From IMG/VR virus record IMGVR_UViG_3300036766_000385, positions 1 to 48,511 of that record: a DNA stretch of 48,511 nt; one strand, 5' to 3'. The notes below the pieces were generated by a model that searched no databases, was not told the DNA's origin, and was given only the letters and a program-made list of their open reading frames with translations. Every line of letters begins with the position of its first letter. Position 1 is the stretch's first letter. This document shows positions 1-48,511 of the stretch, piece after piece. The DNA comes from a virus. The position numbers were made by a program, and so were the translations under genes.

Positions 1-244
1 CCCTCGTTACTCGCATTGAGCACGCAATAGCGGTCTTGCGACGCCCTTCCATAGCGCATAACCATGTACGCCCACTCGGCAAGATTAGCACGTGCTAACT
101 CGCCCCCAAAGCTCGCCCAACGGTTTGCGCTATGCAGGGTCCGCTGACTCATCCGCATTGACCAACGCTGATTATGGACGACCATTTGAGCAAACCGCGC
201 AAGATGTATCGAGTTCGCGAACGCATTCGTTCCGATGTTGATAT
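1..244. repeat. Terminal direct repeat, left copy (circular assembly overlap)
   Basis: Identical to 48268-48511 except base 128 (c here, t at 48395). The repeat sits inside the amidoligase gene and ends without any packaging-like feature, so it is most simply an assembler overlap showing a circular map, with a real variant between reads. Confidence 0.9.
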
Positions 245-860
245 GCAAGCCGCATGTATCGCCATCGTGTGAACGCATACCGCCATGCAGAAGAGACTTA
301 TACATGGTCGTCAGATACGGGCGAGCCTTATGCCAGTACGCAAGCGTGGCGGGATGACTGGCAAACTCAGGACCAGACACGGAGCTATCGTATTTCACAT
401 GCCAGAGTCCTCGGGGTGCTGCCATCGAGACCGCTTCGTCAGCCGTCATAGGCACATCCGCCTTATTGCGCTTCACCTGACGCATGAGATGAACACGATT
501 ATTATTAGACCATTCATTATGCGCCGCTATGTCGCGGTCATGGCCTAATCGTTCCTCGTACGTCGCGTCAGATGATAACCAGAGGACACGTGGCTCGTTG
601 GGTAGGTTTCGCAACAACGGCTCTGCACGGACAGATGTCTCAAGCTCCACGCCGAAGGTGGGAGTGGGATTACCCGTCTCTCGTTCGGCGGTTCGTTCTG
701 CTGCCGTCTTACGGGCGATCCATCCCCGGCTCGGCTGTGACGAATACGAGTGCATCGCAAGCGAGTGCACGCCATGCGGGAGCCCTTTCTTGCGTTTACA
801 AGGGTCACAGTCGCACGTTGCGAGGTCAGCGGCGCGTACCGTTTCCTCTCGCGCGGGCAT
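1..860 (-). CDS. GS-like amidoligase, N-terminal part (gene crosses the circle junction)
   Basis: On the closed circle this gene runs from the ATG at 860 down to 1 and continues at 48267 to the stop at 47607, 506 aa in one frame. The start has a strong ribosome site (GGAGGA, 6 nt away). The family is COOH-NH2 ligases with a glutamine-synthetase fold (Amidoligase_2 type), which join an amine to a carboxyl group using ATP. Visible blocks are FGVELET (residues 69-75), KYDSSVSGPEFAS (156-168), CGLHINIG (203-210) and, in the other part, EFR (290-292). An N-terminal cluster C16-x-C18-x2-C21 may bind metal. The first gene upstream on this strand ends 262 bp away, and that gap holds an RNA fold. The substrate is unknown. 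The next-but-one gene downstream is a class II glutamine amidotransferase, which supports a joint amide-transfer role. Confidence 0.88.
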   Translation of the reverse strand, partial: MPAREETVRAADLATCDCDPCKRKKGLPHGVHSLAMHSYSSQPSRGWIARKTAAERTAERETGNPTPTFGVELETSVRAEPLLRNLPNEPRVLWLSSDATYEERLGHDRDIAAHNEWSNNNRVHLMRQVKRNKADVPMTADEAVSMAAPRGLWHVKYDSSVSGPEFASHPATLAYWHKARPYLTTMYKSLLHGGMRSHDGDTCGLHINIGTNAFANSIHLARFAQMVVHNQRWSMRMSQRTLHSANRWASFGGELARANLAEWAYMVMRYGRASQDRYCVLNASNE

Positions 861-19710: not shown

Positions 19711-20167
19711 CCTGCATGAAAGGCGCGCAAAACAAACTGCATATCAGGCTGCCTATCGCGCTGCTCATCGCCAAGAGAAGGCTGTTTATGATGTTGCGTA
19801 TCGGGCTGCCTATCGCGCTGCTCATCGCAAAGAGAGTGCTATCTATAATGCTGCCTATTACGCTGCGCACCGCGAAGAGCATGCGGCCTACGATGCAGCG
19901 CATCGCGAAGAGCGGCAGGCCCATTATGCACGCATGCGGCCCATGGTTTATGCTTGGTTTGATGCCAATGGAATCTGCGAGTACGTTGGGCGTGGCACTG
20001 CGCCTCGCGCTAGTTCCCATAAACGCAGGCCATGGTGGACATCCACGCACGTTCTGCTTACCATGACCTGTGACAGCGAATGGCAGGCCATGGAATATGA
20101 GGGCATATGGGGCGCTCGCTACCAACCTCGGCAGAATAAAGAAGGTTATCGACATTCAGGAGTATAA
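19703..20167 (+). CDS. GIY-YIG nuclease-like protein with Tyr-repeat N-terminus
   Basis: 154 aa, GTG start with AGGAG 9 nt upstream, overlapping the previous gene. Residues 14-73 are tandem repeats of Y-x-A-A-H-R-E-E type (11- and 15-residue spacing). The C-terminal half fits a compact GIY-YIG fold: VYAWFD (82-87), EYVGRG (93-98), R102, H106, E131 and QNKEG with N145. Such nucleases are often homing or mobile elements, and an insertion between the giant virion gene and the scaffold gene fits that. The same repeat recurs in the 34634 gene. Confidence 0.7.
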   Translation: MASLHERRAKQTAYQAAYRAAHRQEKAVYDVAYRAAYRAAHRKESAIYNAAYYAAHREEHAAYDAAHREERQAHYARMRPMVYAWFDANGICEYVGRGTAPRASSHKRRPWWTSTHVLLTMTCDSEWQAMEYEGIWGARYQPRQNKEGYRHSGV

Positions 20168-34644: not shown

Positions 34645-35059
34645 ATCGCCATTCTCCTTTCTGTATGCGTTCGAGGGCTACTGCCCCGGCTCTCAATATG
34701 CGATTATACAAATGCCCGGATGATGCGTCGTAGGCTCGCTTCTCTTCGCGGTGAGCCGCACGGTAGGCTCGCCGCTCTTCGCGGTGAGCCGCATTGTAAG
34801 CTCGCCTCTCTTCGCGGTGAGCCACCTCATAGGCTCGACTTCTATCGTGGTGGGCTGCATCGTAGGCCGTATGCTGGGCTCGCAGCTTTTCGCAGTGAGT
34901 CGCATAGTAGGTCGCATTGTAGGCTCGCTTCTCTTCGCGGTGAGCCGCACGGTAGGCCGCCCTATTGACACGATTACATTCCCGGCACTCCCCATCCGCA
35001 GTCCGCTGCCCCGGCTCCCCATTCGGATGCCCTTTCGGACAGAACTCCCTAGCGCGCAA
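34634..35059 (-). CDS. Zinc-ribbon protein with tandem 11-residue Tyr repeats
   Basis: 141 aa. The start is a TTG at 35059 with GGAGG 7 nt upstream. The N-terminal FCPKGHP...ECRECNRVNR is a Cys/His ribbon often fused to HNH nucleases. Residues 36-110 are tandem Y-x-A-A-H-R-E-E-R-R-A units (tyrosines 66, 77, 88, 99 and 110 are exactly 11 apart). The same unit occurs in the GIY-YIG gene at 19703. An 11-residue period fits a right-handed coiled coil. No nuclease core is present, so it may be a DNA-binding remnant of a homing-type gene. Confidence 0.65.
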   Translation of the reverse strand: MRAREFCPKGHPNGEPGQRTADGECRECNRVNRAAYRAAHREEKRAYNATYYATHCEKLRAQHTAYDAAHHDRSRAYEVAHREERRAYNAAHREERRAYRAAHREEKRAYDASSGHLYNRILRAGAVALERIQKGEWRYGS

Positions 35060-35684: not shown

Positions 35685-35887
35685 GATGGGCTGACCTCCC
35701 GTTCGTGCTGCGACCCACCGTACAGATTGACCGGCCAGAATACCGCCTGTTTGACGGTCTTGCTTTGAATCTGCATCATGAAACTGTCTGCCCACGGGGG
35801 CAACAGGTCCTTCATGACCTCCTCGAAGGTACGATTATCTACTACCGGCCCTTCGGGGGAGGGCCTAACGGGCTGTTCAATCGTCAT
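35681..35887 (-). CDS. Small hypothetical protein
   Basis: 68 aa, overlapping the end of the next upstream gene by 11 bp and the following start by ATGA. It has a Pro-rich start and an aromatic middle (LLPPWADSFMMQI). Nothing recognised. Confidence 0.55.
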   Translation of the reverse strand: MTIEQPVRPSPEGPVVDNRTFEEVMKDLLPPWADSFMMQIQSKTVKQAVFWPVNLYGGSQHEREVSPS

Positions 35888-36389
35888 GATGCATCACGCC
35901 TTCTGATACCAGACAACGCGGACACCTGCCCGAAGAGTCACGCCCATGCGGCAGGTTCGTATCGTACAGGCCCGGGTCATTATCACAGACGAACCAGTCG
36001 CCCCCGCCCCGCACCGGGGGGGCATCCGGTGTCTGATGGAGACCAGCATAGCGGTCATCCGTACCGAGATGTCGCGCAGAGAACGAGACGAGACACAAGG
36101 CCATCCATGCGGCGTGTGCCATGTGATTCAAGCCGGACTCCGGGTCGGTCTCTTCGCCGTTCCAGAACAGCAACGCGTGTCGCATCATCGCGTTGAAAGA
36201 CAGGCTCCAATCGTAGCCCTTCATGAAGTTGAAGGGTGCGTACTTGTTTGCTCCCATCCCCGCCACGCGGGACAACTCGATGAGGGCCAGCGGGTCGAGG
36301 GCACCGAGTTGCGTCAACTTCTTGCCCTTCATCCCGCCCGTCGTCGCATCAGTGATGCGCGTCTCGTCATCATGCGGGTCATAACTCAT
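35877..36389 (-). CDS. dATP/dGTP diphosphohydrolase N-terminal-like protein (MazZ-related family)
   Basis: 170 aa. The core TTGGMKGKKLTQLGALDPLA, GANKYAPFNFMKGYDWSLSF, MMRHALLFWNGEETDPESGL and HMAHAAWMALCL follows the phage family annotated as dATP/dGTP diphosphohydrolase (DUF5664 type), all-alpha MazG-like enzymes that hydrolyse dNTPs. The C-terminal ~50 aa add a CPRC-containing tail. In 2-aminoadenine phages such enzymes work with PurZ. No PurZ-like gene is seen here, so ordinary nucleotide-pool control is more likely. Confidence 0.75.
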   Translation of the reverse strand: MSYDPHDDETRITDATTGGMKGKKLTQLGALDPLALIELSRVAGMGANKYAPFNFMKGYDWSLSFNAMMRHALLFWNGEETDPESGLNHMAHAAWMALCLVSFSARHLGTDDRYAGLHQTPDAPPVRGGGDWFVCDNDPGLYDTNLPHGRDSSGRCPRCLVSEGVMHHDD

Positions 36390-36862
36390 CGGACTGCCTC
36401 CAGATGAGAACGACCGTACTCATGATTGAGTACGATGTCATCGTTCGCTGCCCAGGCACGTACGAGCGTGAGATATGGAACGGGGTGCAAGGTCAGATGC
36501 CCCCATGATTGACCTACGGTGAAGATGGGTAGTCCGCAAAGCGCATTGGCGACGAAGGTCTCTAGCCGTGCGCCACGCGACTTCTCCCAGCCGGGCAGAA
36601 CAACTACGGCCTCGATACCGTCATCGGCAATCAGTTCTACATCGCGGGCAAGAAACATGCCCCAGCTCACCCCAGGATGGGAGATGTTCAGGTTGCCATC
36701 TAGTGAGGCGAGGGCCGCAAGGCGGCTCTTAGGGTCATCCAACTCGGCTGGACTAATCACCTCATAACCTGCCTTGCGTAAACGATAGGCGAGCGCATCA
36801 AAGGCAGGAAAGTTCATTTGAGAAATGCCTGACATTGGCCCGGCGGTATATAAACGCTTCAT
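36386..36862 (-). CDS. DUF4406 / nucleoside 2-deoxyribosyltransferase-like protein
   Basis: 158 aa. The N-terminus KRLYTAGPMSGISQMNFPAF, followed by YRLRKAGYEVISPAELDD, is the hallmark of DUF4406 proteins, relatives of nucleoside deoxyribosyltransferases. The central MFLARDVELIADDGIEAVVVLPGWEKSRGA matches the usual second half (D...PGWE-SRGA). Likely role in nucleotide or base salvage. It lies beside another nucleotide enzyme and overlaps it (ATGA). Confidence 0.82.
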   Translation of the reverse strand: MKRLYTAGPMSGISQMNFPAFDALAYRLRKAGYEVISPAELDDPKSRLAALASLDGNLNISHPGVSWGMFLARDVELIADDGIEAVVVLPGWEKSRGARLETFVANALCGLPIFTVGQSWGHLTLHPVPYLTLVRAWAANDDIVLNHEYGRSHLEAVR

Positions 36863-37488
36863 TCGGTACTCCCCTTCGGCTTCTCATCATGTTCCAGTGT
36901 GACTTTGAACATGGTCTTCGCTGCCGTGTGATAGATGACGATGCCTTCTGGTTTCATGTAGCCGGGTTCGGCCTGACTGCCTTCGGTTCGTAGGAGGTGG
37001 AGGGCCTCCTCGACGGGTGGGTGAGTTAGCCATTCCTCATTGCCGGTTTGCGAGAATGGTCCCTGATAGAGAATGGGTACTGTGCGCAGTAGTAGGGTCA
37101 CCCTTTCGATGCCTTCGTATTTCTCGGTGTTGAACAGGCTGAACCGTTTGTCCCTGAGATCGTAACCACGATTGATACCCTTGCCCCACCACTCGCCGAA
37201 GTGCAGGCCCTCTCCGAGTACGTCGCGCAGGACATCGGCGTGGTCGCGTACCCATGTCGCGAAGCCGAAGTTGTCTTTCTCGGGCGTGATGATGCGGGTC
37301 CTACTCTGTGCGTAGACGATAGCCCGTTCACACGTCAAGCTATTCAGGCAGCCATCACACGGGTCTTCTGTAGAACAGTTAGCCAGCACGCCGATGGCCG
37401 CATTCGTACCGTCAATCTTCTCTGTGATGATGATGTCGCGATTGAGCCGGGCGATTTTCGGCCACCCCCGAAACTCGATATCAGGCAT
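36859..37488 (-). CDS. RNA ligase
   Basis: 209 aa, ATG 37488 with GAGG 8-9 nt upstream. Motif I is ITEKIDGTNAAIG with nucleotidyl-accepting K24. GLHFGEWWGKGINRGY is motif III, EGIVIYH motif IV and MFKVTLE motif V. The family seals RNA breaks via ligase-AMP. A C-x4-C-x2-C-like insertion (CSTEDPCDGCLNSLTC) lies between motifs. No polynucleotide kinase gene is seen. With three phage tRNAs in the same arm, tRNA repair is a reasonable guess. Confidence 0.88.
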   Translation of the reverse strand: MPDIEFRGWPKIARLNRDIIITEKIDGTNAAIGVLANCSTEDPCDGCLNSLTCERAIVYAQSRTRIITPEKDNFGFATWVRDHADVLRDVLGEGLHFGEWWGKGINRGYDLRDKRFSLFNTEKYEGIERVTLLLRTVPILYQGPFSQTGNEEWLTHPPVEEALHLLRTEGSQAEPGYMKPEGIVIYHTAAKTMFKVTLEHDEKPKGSTE

Positions 37489-37708
37489 CGAGCACCTCGA
37501 TAACCATACTCGTATAGATGACCCCATGCAGGCCCTCGGAGGTTTCGAGCATAGCACACCGCTGGCCGACCACTGGCTCCGGTATGGCGGCAAGCGGGCC
37601 GCTGTGGACCCACAGCACGGGACGTGATCTATCCCCGCGCACCTGACGACTCCATGTCATCGCTTCGGTGTCAATGGTGTAATCGCTATTGAGTGTACGA
37701 AACTTCAT
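37481..37708 (-). CDS. Small hypothetical beta-rich protein
   Basis: 75 aa, ATG behind AAAGGA. KFRTLNSDYTIDTEAMTWSR and VHSGPLAAIPEPVVGQRCAM suggest a small beta barrel. It overlaps the RNA ligase start by 8 bp. Function unknown. Confidence 0.6.
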   Translation of the reverse strand: MKFRTLNSDYTIDTEAMTWSRQVRGDRSRPVLWVHSGPLAAIPEPVVGQRCAMLETSEGLHGVIYTSMVIEVLDA

Positions 37709-45110: not shown

Positions 45111-45568
45111 GACGCACTCCCGAAGATGGTCCGACCGTTCCACGTCGAGTCCGGGCACTCGGCCCGATGCTGGGCTTCGAGAGCAGGCGCGTAGGCCGCC
45201 CGTGCCGTGTTGTAGGCCACCCACGCCGTGCTGTAGGCCGCCCACGCCGTGTTATAGGCCGCCCGTGCCGTGCTGTAGGCCGCCCACGCCGTGTCGTAGG
45301 CCGCCCGTGCCGTGCTGTAGGCCGCCCACGCCGTGTTGTATTCGCCCGGTAGTGGCCCCACCACCGGGCGAAACTCGCGCAGACGGCGGGCGCGCTCGTG
45401 TTCCGGCTTATTGGACAGGATGTAGGCAATGCGGCTTTCAGCAGGCTCGGTGAGGGTCTCGATGAGCGTCTCGTGATGCAGACACCAGACAGCATCGCCT
45501 ATATTCGAGTTAGCGAAGGCAGCGCGGCAGGCTGCCGCTTCGATTTTGATGGATTGCAAAACAGTCAC
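45107..45568 (-). CDS. Tyr-heptad-repeat protein (8 heptads), paralogue of the gene at 1123
   Basis: 153 aa, GTG start overlapping the previous stop. The N-terminal ~70 aa form a folded helical region with Cys/His residues (CLHHETLIETL). Residues 77-132 are eight perfect-length heptads of the type YNTAWAA / YSTARAA, alternating Trp and Arg, coded by 21-nt DNA repeats at about 45173-45340. The C-terminus ECPDSTWNGRTI matches the end of the 1123 gene. The repeat may form a coiled coil or a rigid spacer. Confidence 0.65.
   Translation of the reverse strand: MTVLQSIKIEAAACRAAFANSNIGDAVWCLHHETLIETLTEPAESRIAYILSNKPEHERARRLREFRPVVGPLPGEYNTAWAAYSTARAAYDTAWAAYSTARAAYNTAWAAYSTAWVAYNTARAAYAPALEAQHRAECPDSTWNGRTIFGSAS
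45173..45340. repeat. 21-bp tandem repeats (42-bp higher-order unit)
   Basis: About eight units of the taggccgcccacgccgtgtt type in the 45107 gene, alternating cccacg and cccgtg to give a 42-bp period. Three related units lie at about 1275-1338. The two arrays are close on the circle (about 4.2 kb apart) and share runs of 20 bases or more. Confidence 0.8.
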
Positions 45569-45720: not shown

Positions 45721-45935
45721 TCAATCGGGAGCCCGTTGCTTAGTGCAAGAGCCATCCCTGCATGTTCGTCGCACAGATGCGCAGCATGGAACCAGTCCGC
45801 GCTCACTGTGTCAACAAGCGCGTAAAGCATCGGCTGACGACAATCATATCCGATTAGAAACGTTCCCCACTCACACAGACCCCTGCATTGCTCCGGCGTC
45901 TGCCCGACAGGGATGAGGCCATATCGCGGCATCAT
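45717..45935 (-). CDS. Small hypothetical protein
   Basis: 72 aa, ATGA overlaps on both sides. QCRGLCEWGTFLIGYDCRQP and AAHLCDEHAGMALAL hold spaced Cys/His residues that could bind zinc. No family recognised. Confidence 0.6.
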   Translation of the reverse strand: MMPRYGLIPVGQTPEQCRGLCEWGTFLIGYDCRQPMLYALVDTVSADWFHAAHLCDEHAGMALALSNGLPIE

Positions 45936-46132
45936 TGCATCTTCTCCTTCAGACTCGCGTCATACCACACACTCTCCCATACCGCCCGCAAGCGTGACGG
46001 ATGCACATACGGTCCAAAGCCCCAGCGACATGCCTCGCCCATAGGCGCGCCGCACCGAGGGCAGTCGCGCTTGCGCATCGCAAGATGATGCCTCAAGACA
46101 CGCTCGTCGTATGTTTCGTAGGTGCCCATCAT
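45932..46132 (-). CDS. Small zinc-finger-like phage protein
   Basis: 66 aa from ATG 46132 (overlapping the previous stop). RDCPRCGAPMGEACRWGFGP then YVHPSRLRAVWE has the CPxC-A-G--C--G---H--R pattern of small zinc proteins common in phages of actinobacteria. Function unknown. Confidence 0.65.
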   Translation of the reverse strand: MMGTYETYDERVLRHHLAMRKRDCPRCGAPMGEACRWGFGPYVHPSRLRAVWESVWYDASLKEKMQ

Positions 46133-46350
46133 GTCCCTACTCCCACACAATCGTTGCAGTAACACGGGTCACTTCTATCCGCCCGACCCCACGTACGGCT
46201 CCACGTTCGCACGATGGCCCATGCATCCGGGTCGGCCAGATAGCGCAAGCGGTACTGGTCCGCCTCATCGAGTGATGCGAATGGGCCGATGCCCTCACGC
46301 AACCGTTCCCCTATCACCTCGCGCATATCCACGAGAGTATAGATGGTCAT
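46129..46350 (-). CDS. Small hypothetical protein
   Basis: 73 aa, ATG with GGAGG 7 nt upstream. YTLVDMREVIGERLREGIGP and FASLDEADQYRLRYLADPDA form a small alpha/beta shape, with CYCNDC at the end. No family recognised. Confidence 0.6.
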   Translation of the reverse strand: MTIYTLVDMREVIGERLREGIGPFASLDEADQYRLRYLADPDAWAIVRTWSRTWGRADRSDPCYCNDCVGVGT

Positions 46351-46365
46351 CACATAACCTCCCTA

Positions 46366-47337
46366 CTAAGCCTCTGTCAGCTCGTAATCCATGGACCGCT
46401 CCTCTTCGCGAGCATCATCTGCTTCGGCATCGGCACCGACGCGATGACTCATGTCGATATATGTGTTGCCGTCAATGCAATACACATCCCCGAATGTGTA
46501 GCACGTGTCACACATGACACTCTCGGGCCAATCGCCATCTTTCGAGCGGTCGATGTCCTTGACGGCCGTCAGGGTATGACCGCCGTTGAGGTACTGATAC
46601 GGTCGGCCTACAAGACGGTCCGGCAGATACGCGTCCTCGCCCGTCTTGGCCGGAATAGCGATGGGCGACTTGACGCCTATGGGCCATGTTTTTCTCGCCG
46701 CTCTTTCAGCGGCAGTCAGCGCCATACCCCAATCATCATCATCGCAGGCGGATAACTTACCCCCGTGATAGAGGTACGTCGTCGTAGGCTTGTGATTGGA
46801 TGAATACCACAGACCACCGTCCCACGTGCCATCTTTCTCTTGCAGGTTGACCGTTTCCGTAGCCGTCATGAGGACCAGCCGCGACCATCCGATAGACTGC
46901 TCGACAAGAAATGTGATGGCCTTGTCTGCCCACCAACGCGAGGGCAGATGCGCCAGCACGTCGCGAACGAAGACCTCTGTATCCGACTCACTGGTCTCCG
47001 TGTCAATATCAATGATGCCATTGTGAAACACGAACACGCGGCCCTCATGGGCATCCTGATACTCGAAGGGATGAGCATGCGATTGCGCGCTCGGGCCATG
47101 TGTGGCCATGCGGAAGTGCGCCACATACTCGATGTCGGAGCGCCGGTCCACGCGTTTGAGCGTCTTGCGAAACGCCTTTTTCTCGGCTGGCCCGAAACGC
47201 TTGGAGTACAACTGCCCAGCCTCGCGCCATGCGACCCCAAAACCATCGGGATGACGCTGGACAGCCGTGTCTATGACTTGTGTCGGAATGTTCGCCCCGC
47301 GACCTTTCGCGGTCGGGCGAAGCGCGATCATACACAT
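46366..47337 (-). CDS. Class II glutamine amidotransferase (Ntn hydrolase)
   Basis: 323 aa. The start is set at MCMIALRP so that the catalytic Cys is residue 2, as the family requires after Met removal. The open frame extends 14 codons further, overlapping the previous gene. AHFRMATHGPSAQSHAHPF and VFVFHNGIID are the glutamine-binding R-x-x-T-H and H-N-G motifs of YafJ/GATase_6 type domains. It hydrolyses or transfers the glutamine amide. The C-terminal ~120 aa carry extra Cys (CDTCYTFGDVYCID). Two genes upstream is the amidoligase; such pairs are reported for phage amidoligase systems. Confidence 0.85.
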   Translation of the reverse strand: MCMIALRPTAKGRGANIPTQVIDTAVQRHPDGFGVAWREAGQLYSKRFGPAEKKAFRKTLKRVDRRSDIEYVAHFRMATHGPSAQSHAHPFEYQDAHEGRVFVFHNGIIDIDTETSESDTEVFVRDVLAHLPSRWWADKAITFLVEQSIGWSRLVLMTATETVNLQEKDGTWDGGLWYSSNHKPTTTYLYHGGKLSACDDDDWGMALTAAERAARKTWPIGVKSPIAIPAKTGEDAYLPDRLVGRPYQYLNGGHTLTAVKDIDRSKDGDWPESVMCDTCYTFGDVYCIDGNTYIDMSHRVGADAEADDAREEERSMDYELTEA

Positions 47338-47347
47338 GATGGACGTG

Positions 47348-47617
47348 CTACCTACCTTCCTGCTGCCCATCGGCAGCATCTATGGGTGACCTCAGCGCGG
47401 TCATAAACGCATCGTATGCGGCTACTGAGGCATGCGCTGCTTCTGCACGACGCGCTATACCTTTCTCACGGATAGTCTGATATGCCTCCTCCACTTGCGT
47501 CGTAGGGCGATGCCATGATGGCTCGCGCGGTTCCGCGTGATTACGATAGCCTACAGCTTGTGCACGAGCGCGCAGAGCTAACAAGATGGGAGATTGACGG
47601 TCTATATCAAACATCAT
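47348..47617 (-). CDS. Small protein between amidoligase and amidotransferase
   Basis: 89 aa from ATG 47617, overlapping the amidoligase stop; it ends 10 bp before the amidotransferase start. RQSPILLALRARAQAVGYRN is followed by a helical, Ala/Glu/Arg-rich part (QVEEAYQTIREKGIARRAEA) and a polar tail ending GQQEGR. No family recognised. Its fixed place between the two amide enzymes makes it a candidate partner or substrate. Confidence 0.6.
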   Translation of the reverse strand: MMFDIDRQSPILLALRARAQAVGYRNHAEPREPSWHRPTTQVEEAYQTIREKGIARRAEAAHASVAAYDAFMTALRSPIDAADGQQEGR

Positions 47618-48511
47618 CGGATGCCTGCGGCCATTCGATAGCGGTCTGCTGTCCATAGCGTTCCGCATGAAGTATGCTATGAAACCCATCATGACCCACT
47701 CTCAACTCGCAGAACCACTCCCCACCGGGTCGCACATGACGACACATGCGTTCCGGGGGCGCCTCGTCATCCCAGTAGACACCCACATTCGGATACCCAT
47801 GCTGGCCGCTGTGACCCAACGTCAGCTCACAGTAGTATCCGACACCATCAGGCTGCTGGGAGTTACACGTCTCGTTCTCGTCGTCATAGTTCATACACTC
47901 ACCATCACGGCAGCCGTCACCACATTCACACGCATCATCCCGGTCATCTTCCCTCGCCTCATCCGGCTCATTAGTGAGGTCCGCGATGAGGTCCGGCTCT
48001 AAGATGATGGCTTCCGGTGCTAATACGAGGTCAGGATGCGGTATCTGTTCCTTCGTGGACTTATCGAACGCAGCACGAAACTTCTCGCGCATGAAGGACA
48101 TAAGTTCCGGATACTCGTCCGACTCAGCCACCCAGCGCATGAACGCACTTACCTGAATGCGATGCCCGCTATCACGAGTGTACTCCACCATCGCGGCGGT
48201 CCATTCCAGCTTCGCATAGAAACGGTCTATGCGCAGTGTGCCACGAGGTAAGCGAAACTCGATGCGTCCCTCGTTACTCGCATTGAGCACGCAATAGCGG
48301 TCTTGCGACGCCCTTCCATAGCGCATAACCATGTACGCCCACTCGGCAAGATTAGCACGTGCTAACTCGCCCCCAAAGCTCGCCCAACGGTTTGTGCTAT
48401 GCAGGGTCCGCTGACTCATCCGCATTGACCAACGCTGATTATGGACGACCATTTGAGCAAACCGCGCAAGATGTATCGAGTTCGCGAACGCATTCGTTCC
48501 GATGTTGATAT
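47607..48511 (-). CDS. GS-like amidoligase, C-terminal part with two zinc knuckles
   Basis: Continuation of the gene starting at 860. Within this stretch the stop is at 47607; bases 48268-48511 repeat 1-244. The catalytic domain ends near residue 360 (GRIEFRLPRGTLR at 288-300). An acidic linker follows, then a Cys-rich patch (CECGDGCRDGEC) and two copies of a C...CEL-x2-GH-x-G-x-H knuckle (C421/C433/H439/H443 and C462/C473/H479/H483). The same knuckle core occurs in the 1924-2340 protein. The knuckles may recruit the substrate or partner. The copies of codon 245 differ (Ala at 128, Thr at 48395). Confidence 0.88.
   Translation of the reverse strand, partial: INIGTNAFANSIHLARFAQMVVHNQRWSMRMSQRTLHSTNRWASFGGELARANLAEWAYMVMRYGRASQDRYCVLNASNEGRIEFRLPRGTLRIDRFYAKLEWTAAMVEYTRDSGHRIQVSAFMRWVAESDEYPELMSFMREKFRAAFDKSTKEQIPHPDLVLAPEAIILEPDLIADLTNEPDEAREDDRDDACECGDGCRDGECMNYDDENETCNSQQPDGVGYYCELTLGHSGQHGYPNVGVYWDDEAPPERMCRHVRPGGEWFCELRVGHDGFHSILHAERYGQQTAIEWPQASDDV
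48268..48511. repeat. Terminal direct repeat, right copy
   Basis: Second copy of bases 1-244. Removing it gives a 48,267-bp circle on which the amidoligase frame is continuous. Confidence 0.9.

Follow-up and report, generated by a model that had tools for sequence, protein, structure and literature searches.

Genes at the locus

The window, by which we mean the whole virus contig of 48,511 bases (48,267 once closed over a 244-bp terminal overlap), carries on its minus strand a GS-like ligase gene, a gene for an 89-aa protein and a gene for a glutamine amidotransferase (GAT), tightly spaced and in that order (Table 1), just as an earlier sequence-only reading had described. That reading also gave the ligase 506 amino acids, which is right once the ends of the record are joined, so that the frame runs from 860 down to the first base, resumes at 48267 and stops at 47607, but not inside 46366-48511, where the ligase is a 5'-open frame of only 300 codons. 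The contig can be closed because its ends match: positions 1-244 and 48268-48511 are identical in an end-to-end comparison of the window, save for one C/T difference. This difference exchanges Thr for Ala in the ligase, and it probably reflects two strain variants that were merged when a genome with a circular or circularly permuted form was assembled.

Table 1. Positions of the cassette's genes and motifs in the window
Feature	Position	Strand	Remark
Ligase, 5' half	1..860	-	Start codon at 860; continues at 48267-47607 after closure
Ligase CxCxxC cluster	798-818	-	Motif in 5' half
Ligase GVELE	639-653	-	Motif in 5' half
Ligase KxDxS...E...HP	351-398	-	Motif in 5' half
Ligase GLHIN	231-254	-	Motif in 5' half
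Ligase, 3' half	47607..48511	-	GS fold from AlphaFold model of the sister protein; 48268-48511 repeats 1-244
Ligase EFR motif	48237-48266	-	In 3' half
Two ligase C-terminal CCHH motifs (possible zinc knuckles)	47799-47867 and 47679-47744 (span 47679..47867)	-	
Gene of 89-aa protein, predicted helical	47348..47617	-	Overlaps ligase stop
GAT, class II (Ntn), 323 aa	46366..47337	-	Starts Met-Cys (Cys2); Pfam GATase_4

A sister phage, L003, has the 89-aa frame at 91% identity, and dN/dS against this phage is about 0.09 for the GAT, 0.14 for the 89-aa gene and 0.23 for the ligase; the identity and the low ratios argue that the 89-aa gene and the GAT are real genes. Silent-site divergence in the same comparison (window 46366-48511 plus 1-860 against L003:1719-4730) is uneven, with dS of 0.99 for the ligase, 0.52 for the GAT and 0.36 for the 89-aa gene, and the roughly twofold excess of the ligase over the other two genes suggests that the parts of the cassette differ in origin, as in a mosaic.

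Shortly downstream of the GAT lies a gene for a small Phage_zn_bind_8 zinc-finger protein (45932-46165). Elsewhere in the window, genes for a dATP/dGTP diphosphohydrolase-like protein, a DUF4406 protein and an RNA ligase are consecutive at 35877-37593. About the same 21-bp tandem unit (GTAGGCCGCCCACGCCGTGTT) occurs in two separate small ORFs (45191-45340 and 1287-1356), and further repeat-rich stretches lie at 19737-19935 and 34728-34867.

Families, folds and residues of the two enzymes

Amidoligase_2 (PF12224) reaches 12.4 bits (E 0.14) against the window ligase, below its curated cut-off of 22, and 20.3 bits (E 5e-4) against the sister ligase; it matches 44 of 48 aligned ligase homologues at E 0.001 or better. 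The window ligase directly matches two PHROGs, 16683 and 2443 (amidoligase), the latter at 3.5e-5. A search of PDB sequences with the ligase profile returned only LIM/zinc domains and similar, via the Cys-rich N-terminus, and the fold was therefore tested by modelling the sister phage's ligase with AlphaFold, for which three rows from annotated phage records were left out of the input. The catalytic core of this model is mostly at pLDDT 85-97 and its tail is below 50. Its best match is YbdK, a glutamate-cysteine ligase (225 residues fitted at Z 11.1), glutamine synthetases follow at Z of about 10, and all 50 structural matches listed are GS, GCS/YbdK, GmaS or Dop. YbdK (glutamate-cysteine ligase 2) and glutamine synthetase share the fold and the order of catalytic residues with the window ligase, but they have no GAT partner, act on other substrates and are only ~9-14% identical in structural alignment.

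E72/E74, D158, E165, H206 and E290/R292 are invariant in the 48 homologues, across which ExE, D...E, GxHx[HN] and ExR are conserved save for the His/Asn variation, and a residue comparison shows the motifs to follow one another as they do in E. coli YbdK. Checked letter by letter, they align with the six metal ligands of GlnA (E129, E131, E212, E220, H269 and E357) and with its R359. The identification of a GS-like amidoligase with metal and ATP residues is thus borne out, and the loss of such residues, the weakness the sequence-only reading had feared, is not seen, apart from one change: the second His of GxHxH, kept in 151 of the 162 homologues where the motif was found, is Asn in the window, L003 and L008-L011. 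Because of this replacement, the activity of the ligases that carry it is not certain. Most homologues also have six to eight N-terminal CxxC motifs, which in the window are reduced to CxCxxC.

The window ligase ends in two C-x(10-11)-C-x(5)-H-x(4)-H motifs, which may bind zinc. The motifs pointed out earlier as zinc knuckles do exist, but their reading as a meaningful feature of the system is not supported: a C-terminal CCHH motif occurs in one of 166 ligase homologues tested, the sister phage's, in single copy, and in no other relative. We rejected them as a hallmark on this count.

The GAT matches Pfam GATase_4 (PF13230) at 5.2e-7 and 29.3 bits, above the cut-off of 23, and a profile of 35 of its relatives finds the GlmS domain 1xff at 4.5e-11. 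It keeps Cys2, HFRMATHG (HxRxxTHG), HPF, HNG and SDT as in GlmS, so that the glutamine-binding Arg, Thr and Asp and the oxyanion Asn-Gly are present together with the N-terminal nucleophile. By these matches and intact residues it is a class II (Ntn) glutamine amidotransferase and a predicted glutaminase, Cys2-dependent as first proposed. A C-terminal CxxC stretch is conserved within the window's clade, described below.

Conservation of the pair and its neighbours

Loci for a neighbourhood survey were fetched by the ligase alone, 80 from viral contigs and 80 from prokaryote genomes, and supplemented by three annotated phage records to which searches with the ligase or the GAT had led; one of these, MEP402, was found through its GAT and is not an independent count. 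A GAT follows downstream on the same strand in all 82 assessable viral or phage loci and in 76 of 77 assessable genome loci, confirming that the amidoligase and amidotransferase are a conserved pair. The gap between them has a median of 5 bp in the viral/phage set and is usually within 50 bp; no ligase-GAT fusion was found in the loci surveyed. After dereplication, a GAT is in the surveyed stretch of 100 of 104 loci. Of the other families, a resolvase found in clostridial elements comes next, with 25 loci, and no third gene is in more than a quarter. The most frequent of these families (resolvase, DUF960, WhiB, DUF1643 and DUF3846) each occur almost exclusively in one of the two sets, genome or viral; a third conserved partner was accordingly rejected. 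PADLOC gave no match to a known defence system.

By this survey, which separates the essentials, the two enzymes, from decoration, ligase and GAT are an ancient two-gene unit, strictly conserved across unrelated phages and clostridial genomes, and their other neighbours read as decoration. Distance matrices of the two proteins correlate at r = 0.86 over 52 non-redundant pairs, against a shuffled maximum of 0.15, which supports a lasting pair, although joint inheritance without physical contact would also give it.

The clostridial copies (L090-L169) lie near resolvase, DUF960, DUF1643 and DUF3846 genes, and because they adjoin such genes, mobile elements other than phages probably carry the pair as well. 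Nine loci (L047, L079, L097, L101, L103, L106, L128, L132 and L138), mostly in clostridial genomes, have two ligases and one GAT. Another copy of the pair (L094) is on a contig binned in a Lokiarchaeota MAG; its host is uncertain, and we dropped it as a test of an archaeal host since the contig looks like phage.

The 89-aa protein fares differently from the GAT: conservation beside the ligase holds for the GAT at nearly all loci and for the 89-aa gene only in L003. Nothing in Pfam, PHROG, NCBIfam or PADLOC matches the protein, and its model (pLDDT 69, pTM 0.33) is helical at low confidence. In a collection of 2.9 million viral records it is found in one other contig, that of L003, where an extra ORF separates its gene from the GAT; a weak match in L088 is to an unrelated stretch and looks spurious. 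It is absent from the four other records of the window's clade, which keep the ligase-GAT pair. We therefore rejected it as a general component of the system; by this distribution it is a lineage-specific neighbour that would be dispensable for the reaction proposed below.

The clade consists of six phages, the window, L003 and L008-L011, and further members were sought but none found. Represented by L003 and L008-L011, it is monophyletic in both the ligase and the GAT tree, with support of 1.0 and long stems. What is new here, by the alignments and trees, is this deep clade of the pair, with the ligase His changed to Asn and a conserved GAT CxxC tail, a modest novelty.

Known relatives and proposed function

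Published accounts place the pair in RIO-1-like podoviruses, in phage tf and in OM43 and LUZ24-like phages, and it is a pair of adjacent genes in mycobacteriophage Marvin (gp105-gp106). The OM43 phages MEP401/402 and Marvin have the same two families as the window in the same order, strand and adjacency. Their ligases are ~21-27% identical to those of the window clade and have GxHxH, Marvin's has more N-terminal CxxC motifs than the clade, and, unlike in the window, no 89-aa gene stands between the two genes. The claim that this was the best candidate for an undescribed system thus went too far, since earlier papers describe the two-enzyme pair, and the features held to make the window version special, the 89-aa protein and the knuckles, are local to the window and one sister.

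As the sequence-only reading stated, the literature proposes peptide or wall modification for such pairs. Modification of host wall peptides and superinfection exclusion are predicted in PMC10580990 and PMC11318856, which cite Iyer 2009, and in PMC5498523. The peptidoglycan-modification cassette of phiEco32, RIO-1 and LUZ24-like phages includes, as the window does, a GS-like amidoligase and a GAT, and adds three further enzymes, namely a second COOH-NH2 ligase, an ATP-grasp enzyme and a gamma-glutamyl cyclotransferase (Iyer 2009 as cited; PMC5498523; PMC3890496). Gamma-glutamyl cyclotransferase (PF06094) is absent from the window and five relatives, with positive controls, in records that may be incomplete; ATP-grasp has no match among the selected window ORFs scanned with Pfam, and COOH-NH2 ligase (PF14395) matched neither the window nor its control. 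In the literature searched, no experiment or biochemistry was found for any member of the family.

We infer the complex, the reaction, the substrate and the role as follows. The N-terminal cysteine of the GAT (Cys2 of the gene) would split glutamine and free ammonia, while the GS-fold ligase, with ATP and metal ions, would activate a carboxylate as an acyl phosphate, which the ammonia would attack to give an amide. The two chains are expected to form a complex that hands the ammonia straight from one to the other, in the manner of other glutamine amidotransferases. In our judgement it is fairly probable that the pair carries out glutamine-dependent amidation of a carboxylate. The lack of a common third gene favours a host molecule as acceptor over the product of an adjacent phage gene; our leading guess is a stem-peptide carboxylate of the cell wall, comparable to what MurT-GatD or LtsA amidate, and amidation would then alter either the surface, to the disadvantage of competing phages, or the wall in the course of infection. 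The wall carboxylate is a guess that follows published predictions, and we hold it tentatively; none of the neighbourhood genes points to a substrate. MurT is Mur-ligase-like and GatD is not known to be a class II (Ntn) amidotransferase, and these enzymes are unrelated to those of the window. The likeness lies in the two-protein, glutamine-dependent logic of MurT-GatD peptidoglycan amidation (PMC3267633, PMC5871853).

Were the ligase, like YbdK/GCS or Pup ligase, to use an amino acid or amine in place of ammonia and couple it to a carboxylate of a peptide or of the wall, the GAT-fold partner might be a hydrolase that trims or reverses such amides. YbdK as best fold match and the presence of Dop among the structural matches listed would suit such chemistry, and the PSA-HP1 paper groups the GAT with peptidoglycan degradation genes (PMC5498523), but the GlmS-type glutamine-pocket residues are invariant, which fits glutamine as the substrate, and the strict operon pairing fits delivery of ammonia, so we consider this unlikely. 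A role in nitrogen metabolism has been suggested instead of wall modification, for phage ZRK32 (PMC10945688); the pair would then be auxiliary metabolic genes acting on a small metabolite and not on a polymer. Its spread over phages, plasmid-borne elements and clostridial genomes, in diverse hosts and with no common third gene, is compatible with this, but most ligases have several N-terminal CxxC motifs like zinc ribbons, a hint at macromolecule binding, and no metabolic genes recur next to the pair. We rate its chances as low too.

Further readings turn on features of the window's own lineage. The 89-aa protein was proposed as a substrate or tag, attached or amidated by the ligase, and its place between the two genes, its overlap with the ligase stop, its purifying selection and its low-confidence helical prediction are in keeping with that; yet a single other viral contig has it, four clade members keep the pair without it, in the sister a further ORF separates it from the GAT without evident harm, and the family as a whole shares no third gene, all of which makes the proposal very improbable. 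Equally hard to credit is a catalytically altered or dead ligase, with the pair left in a binding or regulatory role. The His-to-Asn change in all six members, the long stem branch and the loss of most N-terminal zinc ribbons would fit, but the remaining metal and ATP residues are all kept and the GAT is under purifying selection. Moreover, eukaryotic-type GS is an active enzyme with Asn in the motif GAGxHxN. The same changes (GxHxN, zinc-ribbon loss and the GAT CxxC tail) could instead mark the clade as an amidation system in its own right, acting on a different substrate, in which the 89-aa protein and the knuckles of the window lineage would be a specificity factor; this reading turns on ligase and GAT having both changed on long, matching stem branches, and we think it quite unlikely.

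For glutamine-dependent amidation by the pair, Marvin-like phages of Mycobacterium smegmatis offer a tractable model. The Marvin counterpart lies at L004:3680-6020. In LittleLaf (L178:2327-4666), the annotation 'glutamine amidotransferase domain protein' is given to the two genes alike, though the first is the GS-like ligase, and the ligase gene bears the same label in most cluster S mycobacteriophage records among the matches listed.
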